Part shown: one piece after another, positions 6,972-18,135 of the stretch
Numbering within the stretch: position 1 is the first letter of the stretch
Layout: each line of letters begins with the position of its first letter
Assembly (NCBI GenBank): GCA_030425545.1
Contig: JAUIAC010000013.1
Coordinates: forward strand, 1-49,088
Direction: 5' to 3'
Length of the DNA stretch: 49,088 bases
Source: a bacterium
Lineage (GTDB): Bacteria > Myxococcota_A > UBA9042
Notes under the pieces: model-generated
The model's input: only the letters and a program-made list of their open reading frames with translations
Told to the model about the DNA's origin: nothing
Database searches by the model: none
Position numbers and translations under genes: made by a program

Positions 6972-7222
6972 GGCGGGCTCCGGGCTGGGGGCGGGCGGCC
7001 CAGCGGCTGGGCCCCGCGAGACTACGACAGCGAGGTCCGTCAGGCGACCCGGCGAGCGGACGGAGCCGTGACCGCTCGAGGGCCGCGACCGCGGCGCCGA
7101 GGACGGCGCTTGTGGCGCGGCGCCGGGTCTGTCGTCCGCGACGCGCGGTGGATGCACGGGGGGGTGGAAAGCGCTACCTTTCGGCCGCCGCGGCTCGACT
7201 GTCCCCGCGGCGTGGAGGTGCC

Positions 7223-7897
7223 ATGCGACCCCGTTTCACACCCCGTGGCCTCACACCCCGTGGCCTCAAACGCCTGGGACTCAAACCCCTGGGCCTCGCA
7301 GCGGTCGTCTGCGCGCTGCTGCTCGCGGCCGCGTGCGGCACCGAGAGCACCAGCGCCGACCCGGTCGTGGGCTGGAAGGCCAAGGGCGTCACCGTGCTCG
7401 CCGGCGCGGGCTGCAACGGCCACGACAAGACCTGCCCGGGCGCCACCGGCCCGGCGTTCACGCTCGACGACTTCAACCCCACCAGCGCCACCACGGGCCA
7501 GCCGGTCGATCTGGCCAAGGGCAGCGGCAAACCCCGGGTGGTCGCCCTGCTGGCGGGCTGGTGAAGCTACTGCCGCGCCCAGGCTGGGCGCATGAACGAC
7601 ATGAGCAAGGAGCTCTCCGCCGCCGGGATCGACGTCGACTTCGTCGCGGTCAACGCCCGCGACGCGGCTGACTACCAGGCCGACCTCGCCAAGATGGGCG
7701 ACTTCGCCATGGTGCAAGACACCGACGCGCTGCGGGTGTGGGACGCCATGGGCGGCCACAAGGACGACTTCTACCTCTACCACTCCGACGGCACCCTAGC
7801 GGTGCACCTGCCCGAGGGCGGCACGCTCGACACGGCGCTGAGCGGCGACAGCGAGGGCTACGCCACCTTGCGTGGGGCCGCTGCGGCGCTGAAGTAG
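7223..7897 (+). CDS. Thioredoxin-like selenoprotein, lipoprotein (Sec encoded by TGA at 7562-7564)
   Basis: The frame from the ATG at 7223 (GGAGG about 6 bases upstream) reads to an in-frame TGA at 7562 and continues in the same frame to 7897. Read through, it gives 224 residues with U114 in AGW-U-SYCRAQ. This is the catalytic loop of thioredoxin/redoxin proteins, where the usual residue is Cys (WCxxC). C117 is the resolving Cys, so the centre is UxxC. Downstream sequence ([10 protein letters not shown], then [17 protein letters not shown]) continues the fold on both sides of the TGA, which argues against a broken gene. A perfect hairpin lies at 7575-7591. The N-terminus is a lipoprotein signal (lipobox AAAC), so the domain works outside the inner membrane. 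Its basic region is built of four 15-bp tandem repeats. A CNGHDKTC segment may form a second thiol pair. Confidence 0.85.
7575..7591 (+). promoter_or_regulatory. Candidate bacterial SECIS hairpin of the thioredoxin-like selenoprotein
   Basis: The stem gcgccc (7575-7580) pairs perfectly with gggcgc (7586-7591) around the loop aggct. The loop starts 16 nt after the TGA. This matches the described bacterial SECIS pattern: a short stem, a small apical loop with a G in its first two bases, and a spacing of about 16-37 nt from UGA. It would recruit SelB with Sec-tRNA. The element lies inside the coding sequence. Confidence 0.75.
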
Positions 7898-7952
7898 GGC
7901 CTCAAGCGAGGCCGAATTGCTGGCGCGCCAGCCGTGGACCACCGGAGACGCC

Positions 7953-8927
7953 ATGGGGATTCGGTCTCGACCTGCCGTTGCGCGACGGGCGCAGCGGGCA
8001 CGTGTGGGGGCGACCCTGCGCTTTGTGCTGGCGGTCGCGGCGCTGGCCTTGACCCTGGTCGCCCACAGCCGCCCTGCGCAGGCCGTCACGGGGCTGGACA
8101 CCCAGCTGGTCCAGCGCGTCATCGCCGAGGTGGTCCAGCGCGTCCCGCTGAAGGACCTGACCCGGCTCGCGGTCGCGACGACCCGCCGGGCCGTGAGCCT
8201 CGGACCGCACGTCGGCGTCGCGCTCGGCACGGGCGTGCCACAGGGGGTCGACACGCCCTTGTCCTTTGGACTCACGGGCGTGGTGTTCAGCAACCCGATG
8301 TTGAGCCTGGACCAGATGAAGGGGCTCGCCGTCGAGCTGCTCGAGCACGAGCTCAACACCACGCTGCGCACGCAGATCCGCGGTCGGCTCAAGGGCAAGG
8401 TGGCGAGCTCGGTCTTCGACGTGGTGCGAGCCGGCGTCAAGCGCGCGCGAAAAGAGGGGCTCGAGGCCGGCGTGAAGGCCGGCGCTCAGGTGGGCGCGGC
8501 GGCGGGAAAGTCGGCGGTCAAGCAGCTCCGCGAGGCGGACTATGAAGCCATCGCGCGGGAGATCTGGGGACGTCTGTCGGCCCGGTTGAAGGCGCGCTTG
8601 CTCACCGACGACACGCTCCTGCCGAGCCCGAAGTTCGGGCTGTGGTTGGCCATGGCCCGCCTGCCTCGGAGCGAGGCGTGGCAGGTGCGGCTCGGGACCG
8701 GCGTCGGCCTGTCCAAGCTGACGCTCGGCCCCACGCTGAGCGTGCATACGGCGAGCCCCCGGAGCGTGGCGCTGGGGCTCGAAGCGACGGTCAACGCCCA
8801 CGTCGGCCGCGGCCCGCGGCCCTGGCATCTGCAGGCCTTCGCCCGCTACGAGTGGTTCCTGCTGAGCCACGCCGCCTTCGGTCACCAAGGCGCGGTCGGC
8901 CTGCGCTGCGTCTTCGACCTGCTGTAG
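7953..8927 (+). CDS. Secreted protein of unknown function between the two selenoprotein genes
   Basis: This 324-residue protein starts at the ATG at 7953, with GGAG about 9 bases upstream. It has a long basic n-region, a hydrophobic core and a probable signal peptidase I site at RPAQA near residue 44. The middle (about residues 120-210) is helical and charged, with a Gly/Ala-rich stretch (EAGVKAGAQVGAAAGKSAV). The last 100 residues alternate hydrophobic and polar residues (WQVRLGTGVGLSKLTLGPTL, then LQAFARYEWFLLSHAAF), which would suit beta-strands of an outer-membrane or periplasmic protein. I do not recognise the family. It lies 55 bp after the first and 165 bp before the second selenoprotein gene, on the same strand, so the three may be co-expressed. 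Confidence 0.75.
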   Translation: MGIRSRPAVARRAQRARVGATLRFVLAVAALALTLVAHSRPAQAVTGLDTQLVQRVIAEVVQRVPLKDLTRLAVATTRRAVSLGPHVGVALGTGVPQGVDTPLSFGLTGVVFSNPMLSLDQMKGLAVELLEHELNTTLRTQIRGRLKGKVASSVFDVVRAGVKRARKEGLEAGVKAGAQVGAAAGKSAVKQLREADYEAIAREIWGRLSARLKARLLTDDTLLPSPKFGLWLAMARLPRSEAWQVRLGTGVGLSKLTLGPTLSVHTASPRSVALGLEATVNAHVGRGPRPWHLQAFARYEWFLLSHAAFGHQGAVGLRCVFDLL

Positions 8928-9092: not shown

Positions 9093-9902
9093 ATGACCCG
9101 ACCCGACCTCGCCCTCGCCACGCTGAGCCTGCTGCTCGTGACGGCGACCTGGGTGAACTACTTTCGCCGGGTGCCTTCGGGCAACGTCCCCGCCCGGCCT
9201 GTGGGCTCCATCGCCGCCCAGGGCGCGGGGCTGGTGCTGGCCGCGCTCGCGCTCGTGGTCGCTGGCTTCCCGCCCGGCGTCGCTGTCCCCGTGTTGGCCG
9301 GGTCCGCCGCGCTCTTCGCCGCCCTCTTCCTGTGGCTGCTGACCCAACGGGCGACCCCGGTGGGCGACCTGCGCGTCGCGGTGGGCGACCGGGTGCTCGC
9401 CTTCACCGCGCCGCGGGACACCGGCGCCGCCTTCCACACCGACGAGCTGCTGGGCAAGCGCACGCTGCTCAAGTTCTTCCGTGGCAGCTGGTGACCCTAC
9501 TGCAGCGCCGAGTTGCGGCGCTTTGAGGAGATGGGACCCGACCTGGCGCGCTACGGCGTGCGCGTCGTCGCCTTGAGCAAGGACTCGGTGCAGGCCGCCG
9601 CGGCGCACCGACAGCGCGACGGGCTCACCCTTGGTCTGCTCGCCGACCCGGAGCTCAAGGTGATTCGGCAGTACGGTGTCGAGCACCACAAGGCGGTCGA
9701 GTTCTCGACCGGCTCGTTCACGCTCTTCGGCATGCCGCTGGCGTTGCTGCCCTCGTTCAAGACCATGGCGATCCCGACCTCGCTGCTGGTCGACGAGCAG
9801 GGCGTCATCCGCTGGGTCGATCAGACCGACGACTATCGCCTCCGCAGCAGCGAGGCCCGCGTCCTCGAGGCCGTCGCGGCGGCCTTCGATCCCGTCGGTT
9901 GA
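9093..9902 (+). CDS. Membrane-anchored peroxiredoxin-like (AhpC/TSA fold) selenoprotein (Sec encoded by TGA at 9492-9494)
   Basis: The frame from the ATG at 9093 (GGAG just upstream) meets an in-frame TGA at 9492 and then continues to 9902. Read through, it gives 269 residues with U134 in FFRGSW-U-PYCSAEL. AhpC/TSA-like thiol peroxidases of this group carry RGxWCPYC here, so U134 replaces the peroxidatic Cys and C137 completes a UxxC centre. Residues 1-90 contain two or three hydrophobic segments and anchor the domain in the membrane. The C-terminal half has typical features such as VVALSKD, LLADPELKVIRQYGV, and PTSLLVDEQGVIRWVDQTDDYRLR. A perfect 7-bp hairpin follows the TGA. The likely role is reduction of peroxides at the membrane. 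Conserved fold on both sides of the TGA argues against a pseudogene. Confidence 0.87.
9504..9522 (+). promoter_or_regulatory. Candidate bacterial SECIS hairpin of the peroxiredoxin-like selenoprotein
   Basis: The stem agcgccg (9504-9510) pairs perfectly with cggcgct (9516-9522) around the loop agttg. The loop starts 16 nt after the TGA, exactly as in the element at 7575-7591, and again begins with AG. Stem length, loop size and spacing fit the described bacterial SECIS pattern. The sequence is coding as well, so part of the pairing could be due to high GC. Two independent copies with the same geometry make chance unlikely. Confidence 0.77.
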
Positions 9903-10236
9903 CCCCGACGCCGGACCTGCTCGAAGCACCTGCCGGGCCCCTTCGCGTCCACGCTGTCTGCCGGCGAACGACCGGCTGACTCCCTCGTGATGTCCGCCCC
10001 TTTGGGCCTGCGCCAGACGCCCGGCCCCAGCGGCCTCATGGCGAATCTGTACGGGGTTCAACCACCCCAGGCGGACTCGAACGCTCGCGTGTTCTCGTTG
10101 CTTTCACCAACAAAACCATGCACAAGGCGAGCAACCATGACACAGGTTCGCCGGTGCTCGCACGCCGGGTTGTCCCCGACCTGTCTCGGCACGCAACGCT
10201 GCCACGGTCTTCGCTCGGTCACCCGTGAGGATCCCC
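9903..10236 (+). other. Intergenic region upstream of the giant lipoprotein gene
   Basis: These 334 bp hold no convincing gene. A stretch of lower GC around 10080-10145 is the most likely promoter area for the gene at 10237, but I see no clear -35/-10 pair. A 5-bp hairpin (ggggt/acccc, about 10053-10068) and a pair gttgct/agcaac around 10097-10135 are weak. A T-loop-like tcgagt string on the minus strand near 10075 does not belong to a tRNA, because its flanks do not pair. Confidence 0.4.
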
Positions 10237-13200
10237 ATGCCTATCGCCCCTCGACGCTCCCTCAGGACGCCACGCGCCCCCGCTCGTGCGCTCGCCTGGC
10301 TCGCCCTGCTCGCGCTCACGGGCGGCTTCGCTGGCTGCGCCGGCGACAGCGCCGAAGACAGCGGCGGCGCCACGACGGACGTCGCGGTCGACGACGGTGG
10401 GACGCTCTCCGACGGCGCCGTGGCCGATGTCGCGGCCACGCCCTGTGAGCCCACCGGCGACGAGGTCTGCAACGGCGCGGACGACGACTGCGACGGCAAC
10501 ACCGACGGCGCGGTGTGCGACGACACCTTCTGGGGCGAGGGCAAGTCCGGCCACACCGGCTTCAAGGACACCAAGGTCACCGGCGACACCAGCGGCGACG
10601 AATACGAGGCCGACGCGGAGACCACGGTCGAGACCGGGGCCTTCGGCGACACCACCGTCAAGGGCAAGGTGGTGAAGAAGAAGGGCGAAGAGGGCACCAC
10701 CTTCTGCCTCGAGGGTGAGGCGGAGGCCAAGGGGCCGGTGCAGGTCAGCGGTGCGACGCTGCAGGTGTGCAAAGACGCCAAGGGCGAGGTGAAGACCACC
10801 TTCAAGGGCAAGCTGACCCTCGACGGCGAGAGCGCGGACGTGACCGGCACCGTCGAGGTGGGCAAGGACGGCAAGACCACCGCCAAGGCCGACAAGATCA
10901 AGCTCCTCGGGCAGGACCTGGGCGACGTGACCCTGGTCTGGGGCAAAGACGGCGTGGTCACCGTGACCGCCACCGGCGAGCTGGACTACCTGGGCCAGCA
11001 GCTGCCCTTCACCGCGACGGGCACCGTCGTGCCGAAGGCCGCCAAGTCCGGCGGCAAGACCGACGCGGCAGGGGCGGCGGCGGACGGCGCCAGTGAGCTC
11101 GCGCTGACCTTCACCAAGCCGAAGGACGCCCAGCTCGTGGGCGGCACCGTGGGCGTGCTGGCGAGCCAGCTCTCGGGCAAGATCTCACGCCCCAAAGACG
11201 GCCAGAGCACCACCCAGCTGCTCGGCAGCAGCGCGCCGGTGAAGCTGGGCGACGTGGCCGAGGTCACCAGCTACAGCGTCGACGCCGAGCGTGTCGCGGG
11301 CGGCAAGTGGGCCGTCAAGCTGGCGTTCTCGGGGCTGGTGGCGCCGCTGCCGGAGCTGACCTTCACCGGGCTCTTCCAGGAGGCGGCCAAGAAGGCCTGC
11401 CTGAGCGTGACGGTGCCGGTGAAGGCGCCGAGCGGCGACCTCGACCTGACGGCCACGCTCTGCAGCGCGCGGGTTGGCGAGCAGAACGAGCACACAGTGA
11501 CCTTCTCGCTCGCCGCGGGCGTGGGGCCGCTCGGCACGGTCGCCCTCGACGGCACCTTCGTGGTGGGCAGCAAGCAGCTGTGCTTGCAGGGCGCCACAGG
11601 CCACGCGGTGCCCGGGGTCCAGGGCGCCCTGGGCGGCGACGCCACGCTCCAGGCCAAGGGCTGCGTGAAGATCAGCGACAGCGGCGGCAAGAAGTCGCTC
11701 AGCCTGGACGGGCCGGTCACGGTGAGCGCCGAGGTCAGCCTCGACGCCGTCGGCACGCTCACCCTCGCAGGCAGCTACGACAAAGACGGCGCGGGCGGCA
11801 AGGGCAGCCTGTGCGTGTCGGGCCAGGTCACCGGCGACCCGAGCAAGTGGCTGCCGCTCCAGGGCGTGACCTTCCTGAAGGCCGCGGCGCAGACCTGCTT
11901 TGTGGGCAAGGCCTTCAGCGATCTCGCGCTGAGCGCGACCTTCCGCGTGGGCAAGGCCGGCGACCCGGCCGCCGTGGTGCTGACCGCCACCGGTACGGTC
12001 GGCGCTGGCGCGGGCACATGCGCCGCCAAGACGGCCGGCAAGCCTGTGGACGCCGCGGCCTGCGCCCACCTCGAGAGCCAGTTCCTCGCGACCCTCGACG
12101 ACCCGCGCAAGCACAAAGACGCGCGCTACGTGTGGCTCGGCAAGCGCTGCGTCGACACCGACAGCGCCGACAAGGCCAGCTGCAGCGCCGCGGGCGGCAC
12201 CTGGGACACGCAGCTCACCTACGGGCTCACCGTCGCCACCGCGCCGCTGTGCAAGGGCGCGGGCGGCGCCTGCGCCTGGTCGGCCTCCTGCGCCATGAGC
12301 GCCGCGTGCACCCAGACCTGGACCCCCTTCGCCGGCATCGCCAAGGCGCCCGCCAAGCTCAAGGGGCTCGGTCTGAGCGACCTGGCCGGCGGCGTGCTGG
12401 TGGCCGACGGCGTGGCGCGCCTGCACGTGCGCGGCAAGGTGACCACGGGCGGCGGCGCGCTGACCCTGGTGCCCAACCCGGCGGGCGGCGACCTGCTCAC
12501 CCTGAACCAGCTCGAGCTCACCGCCGCCATCGCCACCGACGGCACCTTCCACGCCGGCGTCGCCGGTGAGGGCGGGCTCGACCTCGGGCCGGTGAAGGCG
12601 GATCTCTGGGCCGAGGGCGCGGTCGACCAGAGCGGCGTGCGCTTTGCCGGGCGCGCGCTGCCGGTGTGCAACAGCGGCAGCTGCAGCTTCCCCACCTGGG
12701 CGCCCTTTGACGACGTGGTCGGCAAGGGCAACCTCGCCATCACCGCCAAGGGCGCGCGCGCGGGCTTCCGCGTGCTGTGGGACGCCAAGACGGCGCCCGA
12801 CGCGCCGGCCTTCGAGGCCGTGCTGCAGACCGCGGCCGACATCAGCCTGCTCGCCAACGCCAAGGCCACCGTGTCGACGCTGCTGCGCGGCGCCTGGCCC
12901 AAAAAGGGCGCCGGTCAGGACAGCGGCGGCAAGGGCGGCGGCCCCGTGTTCACGGCCATCGCGCAGCTGCAAAAGCTCAGCATCACCGCCGGCCCGCACA
13001 CCATCGAGCTCGGCAAGCCCGGCCCCGCGGGCGCCAAGGTGGCGCCGGTGCTCTTCCTCGGCTCGACCGCCAAGGTCACCGACCTGACGCTGGACGCCGC
13101 CGTGGTGCCGGACCTCGCGGCCCTGCCCGACCTGTCGGCCACTGGCGCGACCTTCGACGTGCCCAAGGGCGTCACCGTGCGCGCGGCGGCGGAGATCGGC

Positions 13201-16200
13201 GCGGTCAAGCACCTGTTCAAGAGCGCCTACGGCCAGCTCGACGTGACCATCGCCTCGAGCACCAAGTTCGGCGTGCACGCGATCCTCGGCATCGACTGGC
13301 CGCTCATCAAGCCCGAGCACGGCGTGCCCGGCATCTACGACGCTGGCTTCAAGCAGGTGGAGGCCAAGGTCGACGTCGACGGCGCCACGGTCTTTGTCGC
13401 CGTGGGCGGCAAGGCGACCATCACGCCCAAGAACAAAGACGGGAAGAAGAACCCGGAGACCCTGACCGCGTCGGGCTTCTTCGAGGTCGACTCCACCGCC
13501 TCCATCGGCGGCACCCTCGCGCTCAAGGGCCTGTGGGTCGAGCCCTTCTGGCTGCCCAACGTCGCGGTCATGGACATGGGCCTGTCGCTCAAGCTGCAGG
13601 TGGCCGTGCCCCCGTACCCGACCGCGTTTGGCTACACCGGCAACGGGCTGCTGCTCAAAGACAAGCTCTACGCGCCCTTCCCCAAGATCACCCGCGACAA
13701 GCAGAACAACCCGGTCGGCGTCGACGCCCAGGGCCAGCCCATGGCCAAGCTGCCCGACAACGTGGTCAACGTGGGCCAGACCTTTTACTTCGACCAGGCG
13801 CCCAGCACTTCGGGCTTCTGCGCCGGGCCGGCCTGCCTGAGCCTGCCGCCCGTGCTGGTGCGCATCGACCGCCAGAACATCGGCACGAAGGACCTGGTGC
13901 AGGGCGCCAACCTGCTGCTCGGCTTCCTGTCGACCCTCAAAGACGTGGCCCTGGCCAAGGACTCGCCGCTCAAGGTCTACGACCCGGTCAACAAGACCTA
14001 CACCTCGGCCGGCGCGCTCTTCGCCCCCCTCGGCAAGCACCTGCCGCTCGACAAGGGCATGCCCACCATCGACGTGTCGCCGTTTTCCGCGACGCTCAAG
14101 CGCGGGCTGGTATACGTGTCGACCCACGAGCAGAACCGCTTCGACATCGACTGGCCCTTTGGCTTTCGCGCCAAGCTCGACGCGGAGATGACCCTGCCGG
14201 CCAAAGAGCCGGTAACGGGCACGCCCTTCCCCGACGGCGGCAAGACCAAGAGCGTCAAGCTCGACGGCTACCTGGACCTCGACGGCATGCAGCTCACCGG
14301 CCGCCTGTCGCCGCTGAACATCAGCGACACGGCCTCGTTCGCCGCCAACCCCTACCGCCGCGTGGCCGCGCTGGGCGGCGGCGCGCTGACGGTGGCGAGC
14401 CCGGCCAAGGGCTGGGACACGGCCGAGCTGTGGGTGCGCGACGACCAGCTGCAGGCCGGGCAGGCCGGCGCTGTGGTGCTGCGGCAGGTCGCGGGCAGCG
14501 GCGCGAGCGAGGCGGGGCTGGAGCTGCGGGTCGACGAGCTGGCCTCGCCGTGCGCGCCCAACGCGGACACGCCCGTGGATCTCGACGGCAAGCCGCTCGA
14601 CTGCAAGGCCAAGCTCGGCCGCCTGCGCCTGCTGGTGAAGAACCCGGGCGTCGCCAAGCACCCGCTGCGCGTGGTCGCCTCGCAGGTGGGCGTGCTGCCC
14701 GCCAAGACCTGGACCCACGTGGCTGTGGTGCACCGCGCGGGGCAGTACCGCCTGCTGGTCAACGGCGGCGCGGTCGGGGTCACCGACACGGCCTGGGGCA
14801 AAGACGGCGAGGCGGGCACGGCAGACGATCTGCCGCTGACCCAGGGGCCCACCACGGGCGGCACGCAGACCTTCGGCGCGGGCCTCGACGGCCTCGACGA
14901 CGTGCGGCTGTGGAAGGGGCAGCGCTCCCCGGCGCAGCTCACGGCGTGGAAGCGCGGCCTGCCCAAGGGCTACCACACCGACCCGGCGCTGCTCGCGCGC
15001 TACGAGCTCGACTACGACGACAAGGCCTGGGCCGACAAGGCGGGCGTGTTCGCGCATGACACCCGCACGCCGGCGCAGGGCGCCCAGGCCCACCACGGCC
15101 GTCTGACCGGGGGCGCCAAGGTGGTGGTCGACACCGCCGACCAGGACCTCTTCTTCCGCCTGAGCCTGCCCGTGAGCGACCCGAAGGCCGCCGGGGTGTG
15201 GCTGCGGGGCGGCATGGCCGTGTCGCTGCCGGGGCCGCTGGCCAAGGTCATCGGCACGCCGGTGCTCCAGACGGCCGCCGAGGTGCAGCTCGGCGCGGGC
15301 AAGGCCGCGGCGCGCCTGTACACCCGGCACCTGCCGCTGCTGCCGATCCCGAAGGTGGGCGTCTTTGTGGCGACGGGCGACGGGCCCAACAACGTGGCCG
15401 GCGACTTCGACGACGGCCTCTTCTTCGAGGCCGACGCGCTGGCCAAGCCGGCGCCCAACCTCGACGCGAGCGCCCTGCTGGCCTTCGACGACGCCCAGGG
15501 CAAGCTTCACCCCATCGCCGGGGTCACCGCGCGGCTGGGCTGCCTGAAGAAGGTGCCCAAGGCCGGCCAGACCGGCGTGGCGGCCTACGACGCGGTGTTC
15601 ACCACCGGCTGCGCCAGCATCGCCGACACCGACGCGTTCTTCCTCGCGAAGCTCGGCGACAAGGGCAAGCTCAGCATCCCCACCGGGGTCCAGGGCGACC
15701 TGGGGCTCACCGGCCGCTTCCGCTTCTCGACCCTCGACGCGGCGCCAGAGGTGGCCATCGACGGCGGGCTGGAGGTCTTCGGCAAGAAGATCGCCGGCGC
15801 CTTCCTGCGGGCCAACACCCAGGGCGTCTCGGCCGAGGCCGGGCTGGATCTCGGCAGCGTGCACGGCGTGCAGCTCGGCGCGGCCGCCAAGGTCAAGGTC
15901 ACCTACGACTGGGCGCCCGCGCGCCTGTGCGGCTCGGGCAGCACGCAGGTGGCGGTGCCGCAGTTCGCGACCTTCGCGGGCAACGTGGAGGCGTGCTTCG
16001 GCAGCAAGCCCTACGCCAAGTTCGCCGGCAGCGCCTCGGCGGCGACCCTGCTGGGCGTGCCGCTCGCGGACGTGGCCGTGGTGCTCACGAGCGCCGAGGG
16101 CCTGCGCGTCGACAAGGCGCGCTTGCAGATCCCCCAGCTCTTCGACGCGAACCTGAAGGGCCACTTCAAGACGCCCAAGGACTTCAGCCTGCTCGGCAGC

Positions 16201-18135
16201 AGCAGCTTCGGGCCCGGCAACGCCTGGCTGCTCAACCTCAAGACCAGCGCGCTGCTGCGCTACGACAGCAAGGGCCCGCTCGCCCGCCTCACCGCCGCGC
16301 TCGACACGAGCAAGACGGGCAGCTGGGCCACGGGCACGGTCGCCGGCGAGTTCTCCTTCGTCGGCAAGACGCCCTACTACGCCCTGGTCGGCGACGCCGC
16401 GCTCAAGCCGCGCGGGTTCAAGCTGGCCGGCGGGCGCTTCTGGGTGTGCAAGCCCAAGAGCAAGGCGTCGGCGCCGGCCGAGTGCAAGAGCACGAGCGGC
16501 TTTGGCCTGCGCGGGGTCATCGACCTCGGCCTCGCCAAGAGCACGCTCACCGGCGCGTTCACCTTCGGCGGCATCCACGGCAACAGCAGCTACGACGGGG
16601 TCACCCTCACGGGCAGCGTGTCCGGTGGTTTCCACAAGCACCTGTCGCTCAGCGGCACGGCCACGGTGGTGCACACCTGGCCCTCGCTCGCCGGGCTCAG
16701 CAAGGCCGAGGTCAAGGGCAAGCTCAATGGCTTTGGCACCGGCGTGAACGTGGTCGGCACCTTCTCCGCCGACAGCTACGGCCGCCCGTCGAACCTGTAC
16801 CTCAAGGGCAGCGGCACGCTGAAGGTGCCCGCGCCGGGTGGGCCCTACACCCTGTCGAGCGGCAGCTTGTGGGCGCGCTGGACCGGTAACAAGTCGAGCG
16901 CGGGCGCGAGCGGCAAGCTCAAGATCCCGGCCACCACCGTGACCGTGAGCGCCGGCATCTCGAGCGCGGGCAGCTACGCGTTCAGCGGCAAGCAGCACCT
17001 CTACGTCGGCAAGGCCAAGCTGGGCTACGGCACCGCCTCGTTCAGCGACAAGGCCGGCGTGCGCTTCAAGGGCAGCCTCTACGCGCCCTTCTACGGCAGC
17101 TTCGACGGCGCCGTGAGCCGCTACGGCAACACCTACTTCCTGAGCAAGGTGAGCATCGGCACCACGTCGCTCGGCCTGCATGGCACGTGGACCTACCGCG
17201 GCTGCGTCTACAGCGGCGCCGACACGACCACCGGCTGCAAAGGCCTCAAGAGCGGCCAGTTCTCATGGAGCGGCAGCGCGAGCTGGTCCCTCGCGGGTGT
17301 CTCCAAGCTCGCCTTCAAGGGCGCGGCGACCGGCGGCTCGACCGCGCTCAGCGTCTCGCTGACCGGGGGCGGCAACGTGGCGCTGCCAAGCGGGTTCAAG
17401 CTCACGAGCGGTGATTGGTACTTCGACAGCAAGTCCAAGCAGGTGTGCTTCAAGGGCGCGCTCTTCGGCAAGAGCTTCCCGTACCGCTGCCTGACCAAGC
17501 CGGGAAGCTGGAGCTTCACCACCTCGGCCAGCGTGCCGTGGAGCTGGTACGTCTCGGCGCTGCCCTCGGTGTCCGGCAAGGCCGTGGTCGCCTGGAACAC
17601 GAAGTCCATCGCGGCTAGCAGCTACATCAGCTTTGGCTTCCTGGGCTTCTCGTACAAGGGCATGGCGACGGTGAACTCGGCTCAGAAGATCGCCAAGTTC
17701 CACTCAGAGACGGCGCAGAACATCTCGATCATCTACTCGGTCAAGCCCAGCTTCTCGGTCGGCAAGCCCTCGTGGTGCTCGAGCTGCTGCTCCTGTTCGT
17801 ACCCCTGCCCCACCTGGGACAACCCCACCAAGACGTGCAAAAAGAGCTGCCCTGGGCTCTGCGGCAGCAAGCCGGTGAGCGTGAAGTGGTCGGTCAGCAA
17901 GAAGAGCATCGGCGGCAAGATGGTGCTCGACGTCAACGGCTCGTCGATGTCGCACAAGTGGTGCGGCACGCAGGACTGGGGGATCTTGAAGGTGAAGAAC
18001 AAGTGCGTCGGCGTCTCGGCGAACCGCACCATCAACTTCTGCGGCAAGCCCTTCTACCTGCCGCTGAACTTCAGCTTCAAAGACCCCTTCGTCGGCAAGA
18101 CCTGGGGCTACAACGCGTGCAGCGTGAAGTTCTAG
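10237..18135 (+). CDS. Giant surface lipoprotein with MopE-type motif, LamG-like domain and Cys-rich C-terminus
   Basis: This single frame of 2632 residues starts at the ATG at 10237; a GTG at 10225 is a less likely alternative. The N-terminus is a lipoprotein signal with the lipobox GFAGC, followed by a short acidic linker. Next is CNGADDDCDGNTDG near residue 76, the metal-binding motif found in MopE and many myxobacterial surface proteins. Most of the rest is Gly/Lys/Thr-rich, repetitive beta-type sequence with recurring SGxVTG, LKGxLxLDG and GKAxFSG phrases and no membrane segment. A LamG-like module lies at about residues 1370-1570 (TWTHVAVVHRAGQYRLLVNG, then LDDVRLWKG). The end is Cys-rich (WCSSCCSCSYPCPTW near 2512) and probably disulfide-bonded. 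The role is unknown; size, anchor and repeats point to a surface or adhesion protein. Confidence 0.85.
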   Translation: MPIAPRRSLRTPRAPARALAWLALLALTGGFAGCAGDSAEDSGGATTDVAVDDGGTLSDGAVADVAATPCEPTGDEVCNGADDDCDGNTDGAVCDDTFWGEGKSGHTGFKDTKVTGDTSGDEYEADAETTVETGAFGDTTVKGKVVKKKGEEGTTFCLEGEAEAKGPVQVSGATLQVCKDAKGEVKTTFKGKLTLDGESADVTGTVEVGKDGKTTAKADKIKLLGQDLGDVTLVWGKDGVVTVTATGELDYLGQQLPFTATGTVVPKAAKSGGKTDAAGAAADGASELALTFTKPKDAQLVGGTVGVLASQLSGKISRPKDGQSTTQLLGSSAPVKLGDVAEVTSYSVDAERVAGGKWAVKLAFSGLVAPLPELTFTGLFQEAAKKACLSVTVPVKAPSGDLDLTATLCSARVGEQNEHTVTFSLAAGVGPLGTVALDGTFVVGSKQLCLQGATGHAVPGVQGALGGDATLQAKGCVKISDSGGKKSLSLDGPVTVSAEVSLDAVGTLTLAGSYDKDGAGGKGSLCVSGQVTGDPSKWLPLQGVTFLKAAAQTCFVGKAFSDLALSATFRVGKAGDPAAVVLTATGTVGAGAGTCAAKTAGKPVDAAACAHLESQFLATLDDPRKHKDARYVWLGKRCVDTDSADKASCSAAGGTWDTQLTYGLTVATAPLCKGAGGACAWSASCAMSAACTQTWTPFAGIAKAPAKLKGLGLSDLAGGVLVADGVARLHVRGKVTTGGGALTLVPNPAGGDLLTLNQLELTAAIATDGTFHAGVAGEGGLDLGPVKADLWAEGAVDQSGVRFAGRALPVCNSGSCSFPTWAPFDDVVGKGNLAITAKGARAGFRVLWDAKTAPDAPAFEAVLQTAADISLLANAKATVSTLLRGAWPKKGAGQDSGGKGGGPVFTAIAQLQKLSITAGPHTIELGKPGPAGAKVAPVLFLGSTAKVTDLTLDAAVVPDLAALPDLSATGATFDVPKGVTVRAAAEIGAVKHLFKSAYGQLDVTIASSTKFGVHAILGIDWPLIKPEHGVPGIYDAGFKQVEAKVDVDGATVFVAVGGKATITPKNKDGKKNPETLTASGFFEVDSTASIGGTLALKGLWVEPFWLPNVAVMDMGLSLKLQVAVPPYPTAFGYTGNGLLLKDKLYAPFPKITRDKQNNPVGVDAQGQPMAKLPDNVVNVGQTFYFDQAPSTSGFCAGPACLSLPPVLVRIDRQNIGTKDLVQGANLLLGFLSTLKDVALAKDSPLKVYDPVNKTYTSAGALFAPLGKHLPLDKGMPTIDVSPFSATLKRGLVYVSTHEQNRFDIDWPFGFRAKLDAEMTLPAKEPVTGTPFPDGGKTKSVKLDGYLDLDGMQLTGRLSPLNISDTASFAANPYRRVAALGGGALTVASPAKGWDTAELWVRDDQLQAGQAGAVVLRQVAGSGASEAGLELRVDELASPCAPNADTPVDLDGKPLDCKAKLGRLRLLVKNPGVAKHPLRVVASQVGVLPAKTWTHVAVVHRAGQYRLLVNGGAVGVTDTAWGKDGEAGTADDLPLTQGPTTGGTQTFGAGLDGLDDVRLWKGQRSPAQLTAWKRGLPKGYHTDPALLARYELDYDDKAWADKAGVFAHDTRTPAQGAQAHHGRLTGGAKVVVDTADQDLFFRLSLPVSDPKAAGVWLRGGMAVSLPGPLAKVIGTPVLQTAAEVQLGAGKAAARLYTRHLPLLPIPKVGVFVATGDGPNNVAGDFDDGLFFEADALAKPAPNLDASALLAFDDAQGKLHPIAGVTARLGCLKKVPKAGQTGVAAYDAVFTTGCASIADTDAFFLAKLGDKGKLSIPTGVQGDLGLTGRFRFSTLDAAPEVAIDGGLEVFGKKIAGAFLRANTQGVSAEAGLDLGSVHGVQLGAAAKVKVTYDWAPARLCGSGSTQVAVPQFATFAGNVEACFGSKPYAKFAGSASAATLLGVPLADVAVVLTSAEGLRVDKARLQIPQLFDANLKGHFKTPKDFSLLGSSSFGPGNAWLLNLKTSALLRYDSKGPLARLTAALDTSKTGSWATGTVAGEFSFVGKTPYYALVGDAALKPRGFKLAGGRFWVCKPKSKASAPAECKSTSGFGLRGVIDLGLAKSTLTGAFTFGGIHGNSSYDGVTLTGSVSGGFHKHLSLSGTATVVHTWPSLAGLSKAEVKGKLNGFGTGVNVVGTFSADSYGRPSNLYLKGSGTLKVPAPGGPYTLSSGSLWARWTGNKSSAGASGKLKIPATTVTVSAGISSAGSYAFSGKQHLYVGKAKLGYGTASFSDKAGVRFKGSLYAPFYGSFDGAVSRYGNTYFLSKVSIGTTSLGLHGTWTYRGCVYSGADTTTGCKGLKSGQFSWSGSASWSLAGVSKLAFKGAATGGSTALSVSLTGGGNVALPSGFKLTSGDWYFDSKSKQVCFKGALFGKSFPYRCLTKPGSWSFTTSASVPWSWYVSALPSVSGKAVVAWNTKSIAASSYISFGFLGFSYKGMATVNSAQKIAKFHSETAQNISIIYSVKPSFSVGKPSWCSSCCSCSYPCPTWDNPTKTCKKSCPGLCGSKPVSVKWSVSKKSIGGKMVLDVNGSSMSHKWCGTQDWGILKVKNKCVGVSANRTINFCGKPFYLPLNFSFKDPFVGKTWGYNACSVKF

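Follow-up and report, generated by a model that had tools for sequence, protein, structure and literature searches.

Does the single TGA in the open reading frame at 7223–7897 of the 49,088-nucleotide stretch of DNA analysed here (the window), which comes from a myxobacterium-like bacterium, end a gene, or is it read as selenocysteine (Sec); and if it is so read, to which proteins is the product related and what might it do?

A lipoprotein gene with one in-frame TGA

The translation of 7223–7897 starts MRPRFTPRG and ends ALK; its sole internal stop is the TGA at residue 114, in a redox site that reads LLAGWUSYC. A preliminary description of this DNA had placed the TGA at the first Cys of a WCxxC motif, with coding sequence on both sides, in a gene for a lipoprotein. 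Translation and the presence of TGA at this position in 39 homologues confirm the first point, and codon usage and a signal peptide with lipobox bear out the other two. The predicted features of the gene are as follows.

7214–7219 (+): possible ribosome binding site GGAGGT, about 3 nt upstream of the ATG (by eye from the sequence)
7223–7897 (+): selenolipoprotein gene, 224 residues with Sec at 114 and a TAG stop (translation, Pfam, codon usage, homologues)
7223–7336 (+): signal peptide with basic n-region and hydrophobic core (sequence and lipobox scan)
7337–7339 (+): lipobox Cys, residue 39, the predicted lipidated residue 1 of the mature protein (lipobox scan)
7439–7894 (+): thioredoxin-fold (SelP_N/ResA-like) domain (Pfam, AlphaFold2 model, VIA structure comparison)
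7562–7564 (+): Sec-UGA codon, first residue of the UxxC redox motif, U114-S-Y-C117 (homologue alignment)

A codon-usage score trained on the window's own genes supported the frame both 5' and 3' of the TGA, which had the highest two-sided coding score of all TGAs in the window. The TGA at 9492 came second, and these two, each at a UxxC site, were the only ones with clear coding on both sides. The lipobox was found by pattern match as LLLAAA/CG, a weaker form with Ala at −3; a lipobox Cys was detected by the same scan in nearly all relatives, often followed by a low-complexity linker. Export and lipid anchoring of the window protein are therefore very likely. Short imperfect direct repeats (cctcacaccccgtggcct...) lie at 7230–7290 in the signal-peptide coding region.

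A SECIS hairpin maintained by compensatory changes

The preliminary description had reported a hairpin starting 16 nt after the TGA. Its 6-bp stem and AGGCT loop were recovered, but it is the apical loop that starts 16 nt past the TGA; the stem starts at 10 nt.

7575–7591 (+): bacterial SECIS hairpin, stem GCGCCC 7575–7580 / GGGCGC 7586–7591, loop AGGCT 7581–7585

An extra closing A-U pair (7581/7585) is also possible. Published rules for bacterial SECIS elements specify a loop of 3–9 nt, a stem of 4–16 bp, a spacing of 16–37 nt, a G in the first two loop positions and a minimum free energy (MFE) of −7.5 or lower (PMC13188914). The window hairpin, at −12.0 kcal/mol (z −2.28 against synonymous-codon shuffles), conforms in loop, stem, G, spacing and energy, as had been proposed.

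Covariation was analysed over an 8-bp helix in 35 aligned genes; a further gene, L023, was excluded because it keeps the TGA but has its best hairpin 8 nt further out. Standard pairs occupied 91.8% of cells, and double changes were seen in six of the eight base pairs (49 cells versus 11.6 in shuffles). The covariation score was 0.501 compared with 0.106 for shuffled alignments, a value reached by none of 500 shuffles; as a control, sliding the partner strand by 1–3 nt abolished the signal, and RNAalifold recovered the same helix unprompted. Judged from these aligned sequences, the SECIS hairpin is kept by compensatory changes. Against synonymous-codon shuffles the hairpin was more stable than expected in Sec genes (mean z −1.91, n = 39), whereas the Cys homologues showed no extra stability (mean z +0.21, n = 9) and lacked the SECIS hairpin. 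The signal was confined to the hairpin proper: folding energy of the whole region (z −1.02) and 54-nt MFE compared with codon shuffles (mean z −0.43) were both uninformative. The alignment also showed Q-A-G in Sec forms versus Q-S-G in the closest Cys forms, which fits the RNA element constraining the protein; the SECIS thus seems to shape the protein sequence as well.

Conservation of the TGA across the family

Homologues were found in 40 of 52 related genomes searched, and nearly all the strong ones contained exactly one TGA. Profile search and alignment across these Myxococcota-type genomes showed U in the active-site position of 39 homologues and C in that of nine, so that Cys homologues, which the preliminary description had suggested seeking, do align at the TGA; three of them (L025, L029 and L042) have continuous frames. 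Coding sequence 3' of the TGA was conserved, with family residues kept on both sides. A DNA pattern combining the TGA with the hairpin, run over approximately 85,000 species genomes, gave 35 matches, 31 within the family and four by chance; the 31 were in metagenome-assembled genomes (MAGs) named Myxococcales, Polyangia/Polyangiaceae, Deltaproteobacteria and (unclassified) Proteobacteria. An earlier contig scan with single-protein peptide patterns had given no matches. Of 282 genomes sampled from the phylum, 51 gave a match to the family profile at E ≤ 1e-20; most matches carried a single TGA, and some lacked a TGA. Codon-position differences between homologues were saturated for most pairs.

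The window's own genome carries three further TGA-bearing paralogues (L054, L060 and L065, on contigs C699, C908 and C407). In the one on C908, CDD/CTTDTCD motifs recur in a long N-terminal part rich in Cys, so that the domain is also found in large proteins.

These data bear on two simpler readings of the TGA. The assembly is MAG-derived and fragmented, and a single change would turn TGC into TGA, so one could suppose that the TGA arose in an ordinary Cys gene through decay to a pseudogene or through an error of sequencing or assembly; the same TGA, however, recurs across dozens of assemblies made independently, some of them MAGs named as Myxococcota or 'Deltaproteobacteria', with conserved coding 3' of it and a covarying hairpin, and the conserved TGA with its SECIS refutes this reading, to which we give almost no weight. 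Termination at the UGA would yield a 113-residue secreted fragment and a separate small ORF (7592–7897), for which an ATG start does exist at 7592; but the thioredoxin fold would then be cut within its active site, the three Cys homologues named above run through continuously and the hairpin is absent from Cys genes, which makes a true stop extremely improbable.

Selenocysteine machinery

The preliminary description had named selA, selB, selC and selD as genes to look for in this genome, and the first three are present: tRNA-Sec (76.9 bits, TCA anticodon), selB (244.5 bits, just above the cut-off of 242.25) and selA (351.9 bits), which runs off contig C420 and continues at the end of C30. No selD was detected in the window's own assembly (945 contigs, 92% complete); the gene is strong in two genomes of the same genus (G001 and G003; L093, L094), where it has an in-frame TGA itself. 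Where a genome had a strong TGA homologue (25 genomes), selA was present in 24 and tRNA-Sec in 23, compared with 17 and 14 of the remaining 27 (Fisher p 0.005 and 0.002 respectively, shared ancestry being ignored). One genome with TGA homologues, G039 (87% complete, 770 contigs), yielded neither selA nor tRNA-Sec.

Some bacteria recode UGA, and this precedent is what a variant code or suppressor tRNA inserting Cys or Trp would have in its favour; no present result points there. Against it, the only two TGAs in the window with clear coding on both sides both lie at UxxC sites, the genome has tRNA-Sec, selA and selB, and only the TGA genes carry the SECIS; we regard such recoding as scarcely credible. 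Insertion of Sec at U114 via the UGA, as predicted from these features, is close to certain.

Fold and active site

Four Pfam models, SelP_N, Redoxin, AhpC-TSA and Thioredoxin, scored over cut-off with the window protein. The AlphaFold2 model of the mature domain (pLDDT 89.4, pTM 0.85) had its best structural matches in DsbE/ResA proteins (3gl3: VIA Z 17.4, rmsd 2.0, 137 aligned residues; VIA Z to ResA, 16.5), with peroxiredoxin (Prx)-type folds ranking next and AhpE, Bcp and GPX4 among the matches. The protein shares with ResA, TlpA and DsbE (CcmG) its fold (VIA Z 16–17), a membrane-anchored and exported state and the position of the redox site within the fold. It differs from them in having Sec for the first Cys and, apparently, the Asp of an invariant KDD at the cis-Pro position; its bit scores were far below the corresponding NCBIfam cut-offs, none of which was reached (TlpA 28.6 versus 230, DsbE 21.6 versus 123, ResA 17.1 versus 170). 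In a 30-row alignment, the UxxC positions, QAG after UxxC, an Asn, a Gln-Asp and the Lys-Asp-Asp were invariant. The Pro of 1lu4 aligns with the Asp of the window protein's KDD, so that the protein is not a plain ResA; from this alignment the thioredoxin cis-proline appears to be replaced by the invariant Lys-Asp-Asp, a loss which counts against plain ResA or thioredoxin chemistry.

The nearest NCBIfam model was NF053656, redoxin_TUGYCR (seleno)protein, which matched all 40 family members (best E 2.2e-22); the window protein scored 62.1 bits against its cut-off of 100 and is therefore a relative rather than a member. Most likely, the window protein belongs among the known UxxC thioredoxin-fold selenoproteins. 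The preliminary description had singled out an exported Sec lipoprotein as notable, which holds in part: exported bacterial selenoproteins are already known, among them E. coli Fdh-N and Fdh-O, whose catalytic subunits are periplasmic (PMC3160892), and the DsbA- and DsbG-like families covered in a review (PMC13188914).

Likeness to selenoprotein P

The family size, a second selenoprotein gene downstream and a likeness to animal selenoprotein P go beyond the preliminary description. SelP_N (PF04592) was the top Pfam match of the window protein, at 42.3 bits against a gathering cut-off of 23.2, and matched 37 of the 40 family members at E < 0.001 (best 4.6e-16). It matched no protein in 14 control genomes, including those of E. 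coli and B. subtilis, species known to have DsbE and ResA. The human selenoprotein P N-domain scored 77.5 bits against the family profile, a figure to be taken only as a lead; the best solved PDB chain of any kind, ResA, scored 28.5 bits. By these profile comparisons the family is closer to the front domain of animal selenoprotein P than to ordinary bacterial thioredoxins.

Like the family, the N-domain of selenoprotein P has a thioredoxin fold and a UxxC motif with Sec first, and is exported. The window protein ends after the thioredoxin domain with a single Sec, and is without the Cys-rich region and the multi-Sec C-terminal selenium transport domain of selenoprotein P; the family further differs in its lipid anchor and in a bacterial SECIS inside the gene.

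Fold recognition had tied selenoprotein P to TlpA/ResA, its origin being called unclear (Lobanov et al., 2008; PMC2397514), and a 2026 catalogue has no selenoprotein P family among prokaryotes. In the literature on Myxococcota selenoproteins and bacterial selenoprotein P we found only a remark on 'Prx-like 2', a group of bacterial UxxC selenoproteins from the marine GOS metagenome with weak similarity to pfam04592, which had no strong homologue in genomes of that time and includes UxxU members and domain fusions (GOS, 2008; PMC2398784). The present family, in which no UxxU form was seen, may be the genomic counterpart of this prior art, the two being compared by description only.

Neighbouring genes and a second selenoprotein gene

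About 14 relatives, of both Sec and Cys forms, are followed directly on the same strand by a gene for a di-haem cytochrome c, which has two CxxCH sites and ends in a rhodanese domain (for example L112:5076–6338, L139:462–1535 and L034:2025–3077). Most members paired in this way have one more Cys, in an SCG motif N-terminal to the redox site; the window protein does not have it. The window copy has no cytochrome c-rhodanese neighbour, and the gene directly downstream (7917–8927) gave no Pfam match. After it comes the gene that holds the second TGA with clear coding on both sides; this gene lies 1.2 kb downstream of the first.

9093–9902 (+): second selenoprotein gene, Prx-like (AhpC/TSA-type), with N-terminal membrane segments and U134 (TGA 9492–9494)

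The redox site of its product reads GSW-U-PYC, and AhpC-TSA matched at 88.7 bits. A same-genus homologue (L071) is 70% identical and keeps the TGA, and both genes contain the SECIS-like hairpin AGCGCCG-AGTTG-CGGCGCT. A conserved operon of the two window selenoprotein genes was considered and rejected, as they lie on separate contigs in G001. Further downstream, 10225–18135 (+) encodes a putative secreted lipoprotein of 2636 residues, repeat-like and with many Lys and Gly.

Proposed mechanism and function

We propose that SelB carrying Sec-tRNA-Sec, held at the hairpin, would insert Sec at the UGA, and that the chain would then be exported and lipidated at Cys39, facing the periplasm. U114 would act as the attacking selenolate and C117 as the resolving thiol, giving a selenenylsulfide; such UxxC redox chemistry is likely, if slightly less so than export and anchoring. 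With this pair the protein would reduce oxidised thiols, per-sulfides or peroxides. Electrons would probably come from a putative periplasmic thiol relay; in the sub-branch with the conserved neighbour, that neighbour, the di-haem cytochrome c-rhodanese protein, would probably be the partner, pointing to a role in sulfur or cytochrome-thiol redox reactions.

Which substrate is reduced is where the alternatives come closest. A membrane-surface peroxidase acting on lipid peroxides or H2O2, a thioredoxin-fold selenoenzyme resembling GPX4 rather than a thiol-disulfide reductase, would account for the AhpC-TSA and Redoxin scores, the AhpE, Bcp and GPX4 structural matches, the KDD in place of the thioredoxin cis-proline and the membrane anchor. 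The peroxiredoxin motif PxxxTxxC/U is absent, however, the site reading LLAGWUSYC; UxxC centres are of the disulfide type, the structure matches best to ResA and DsbE, and the neighbour in the sub-branch is a cytochrome c-rhodanese protein. Such a peroxidase is thus a serious but less probable reading, and on the basis of fold and neighbours we somewhat favour reduction of disulfides or per-sulfides. The conserved pairing with the cytochrome c-rhodanese gene hints at a testable, Sec-dependent redox step in the periplasm that involves sulfur or a cytochrome.

Given bacterial genes with sequence matches to the selenoprotein P N-domain, whose exported products have Sec at the same UxxC, the origin of selenoprotein P becomes testable by tree. 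That the Myxococcota selenolipoproteins are the bacterial sister group of the animal N-domain, or even the lineage that donated it, is a speculative proposal that we think rather unlikely as it stands. If it were true, the selenium carrier would derive from a UxxC selenoenzyme that bacteria exported and that already used Sec, and the Sec-rich tail of selenoprotein P would be a later addition in animals.
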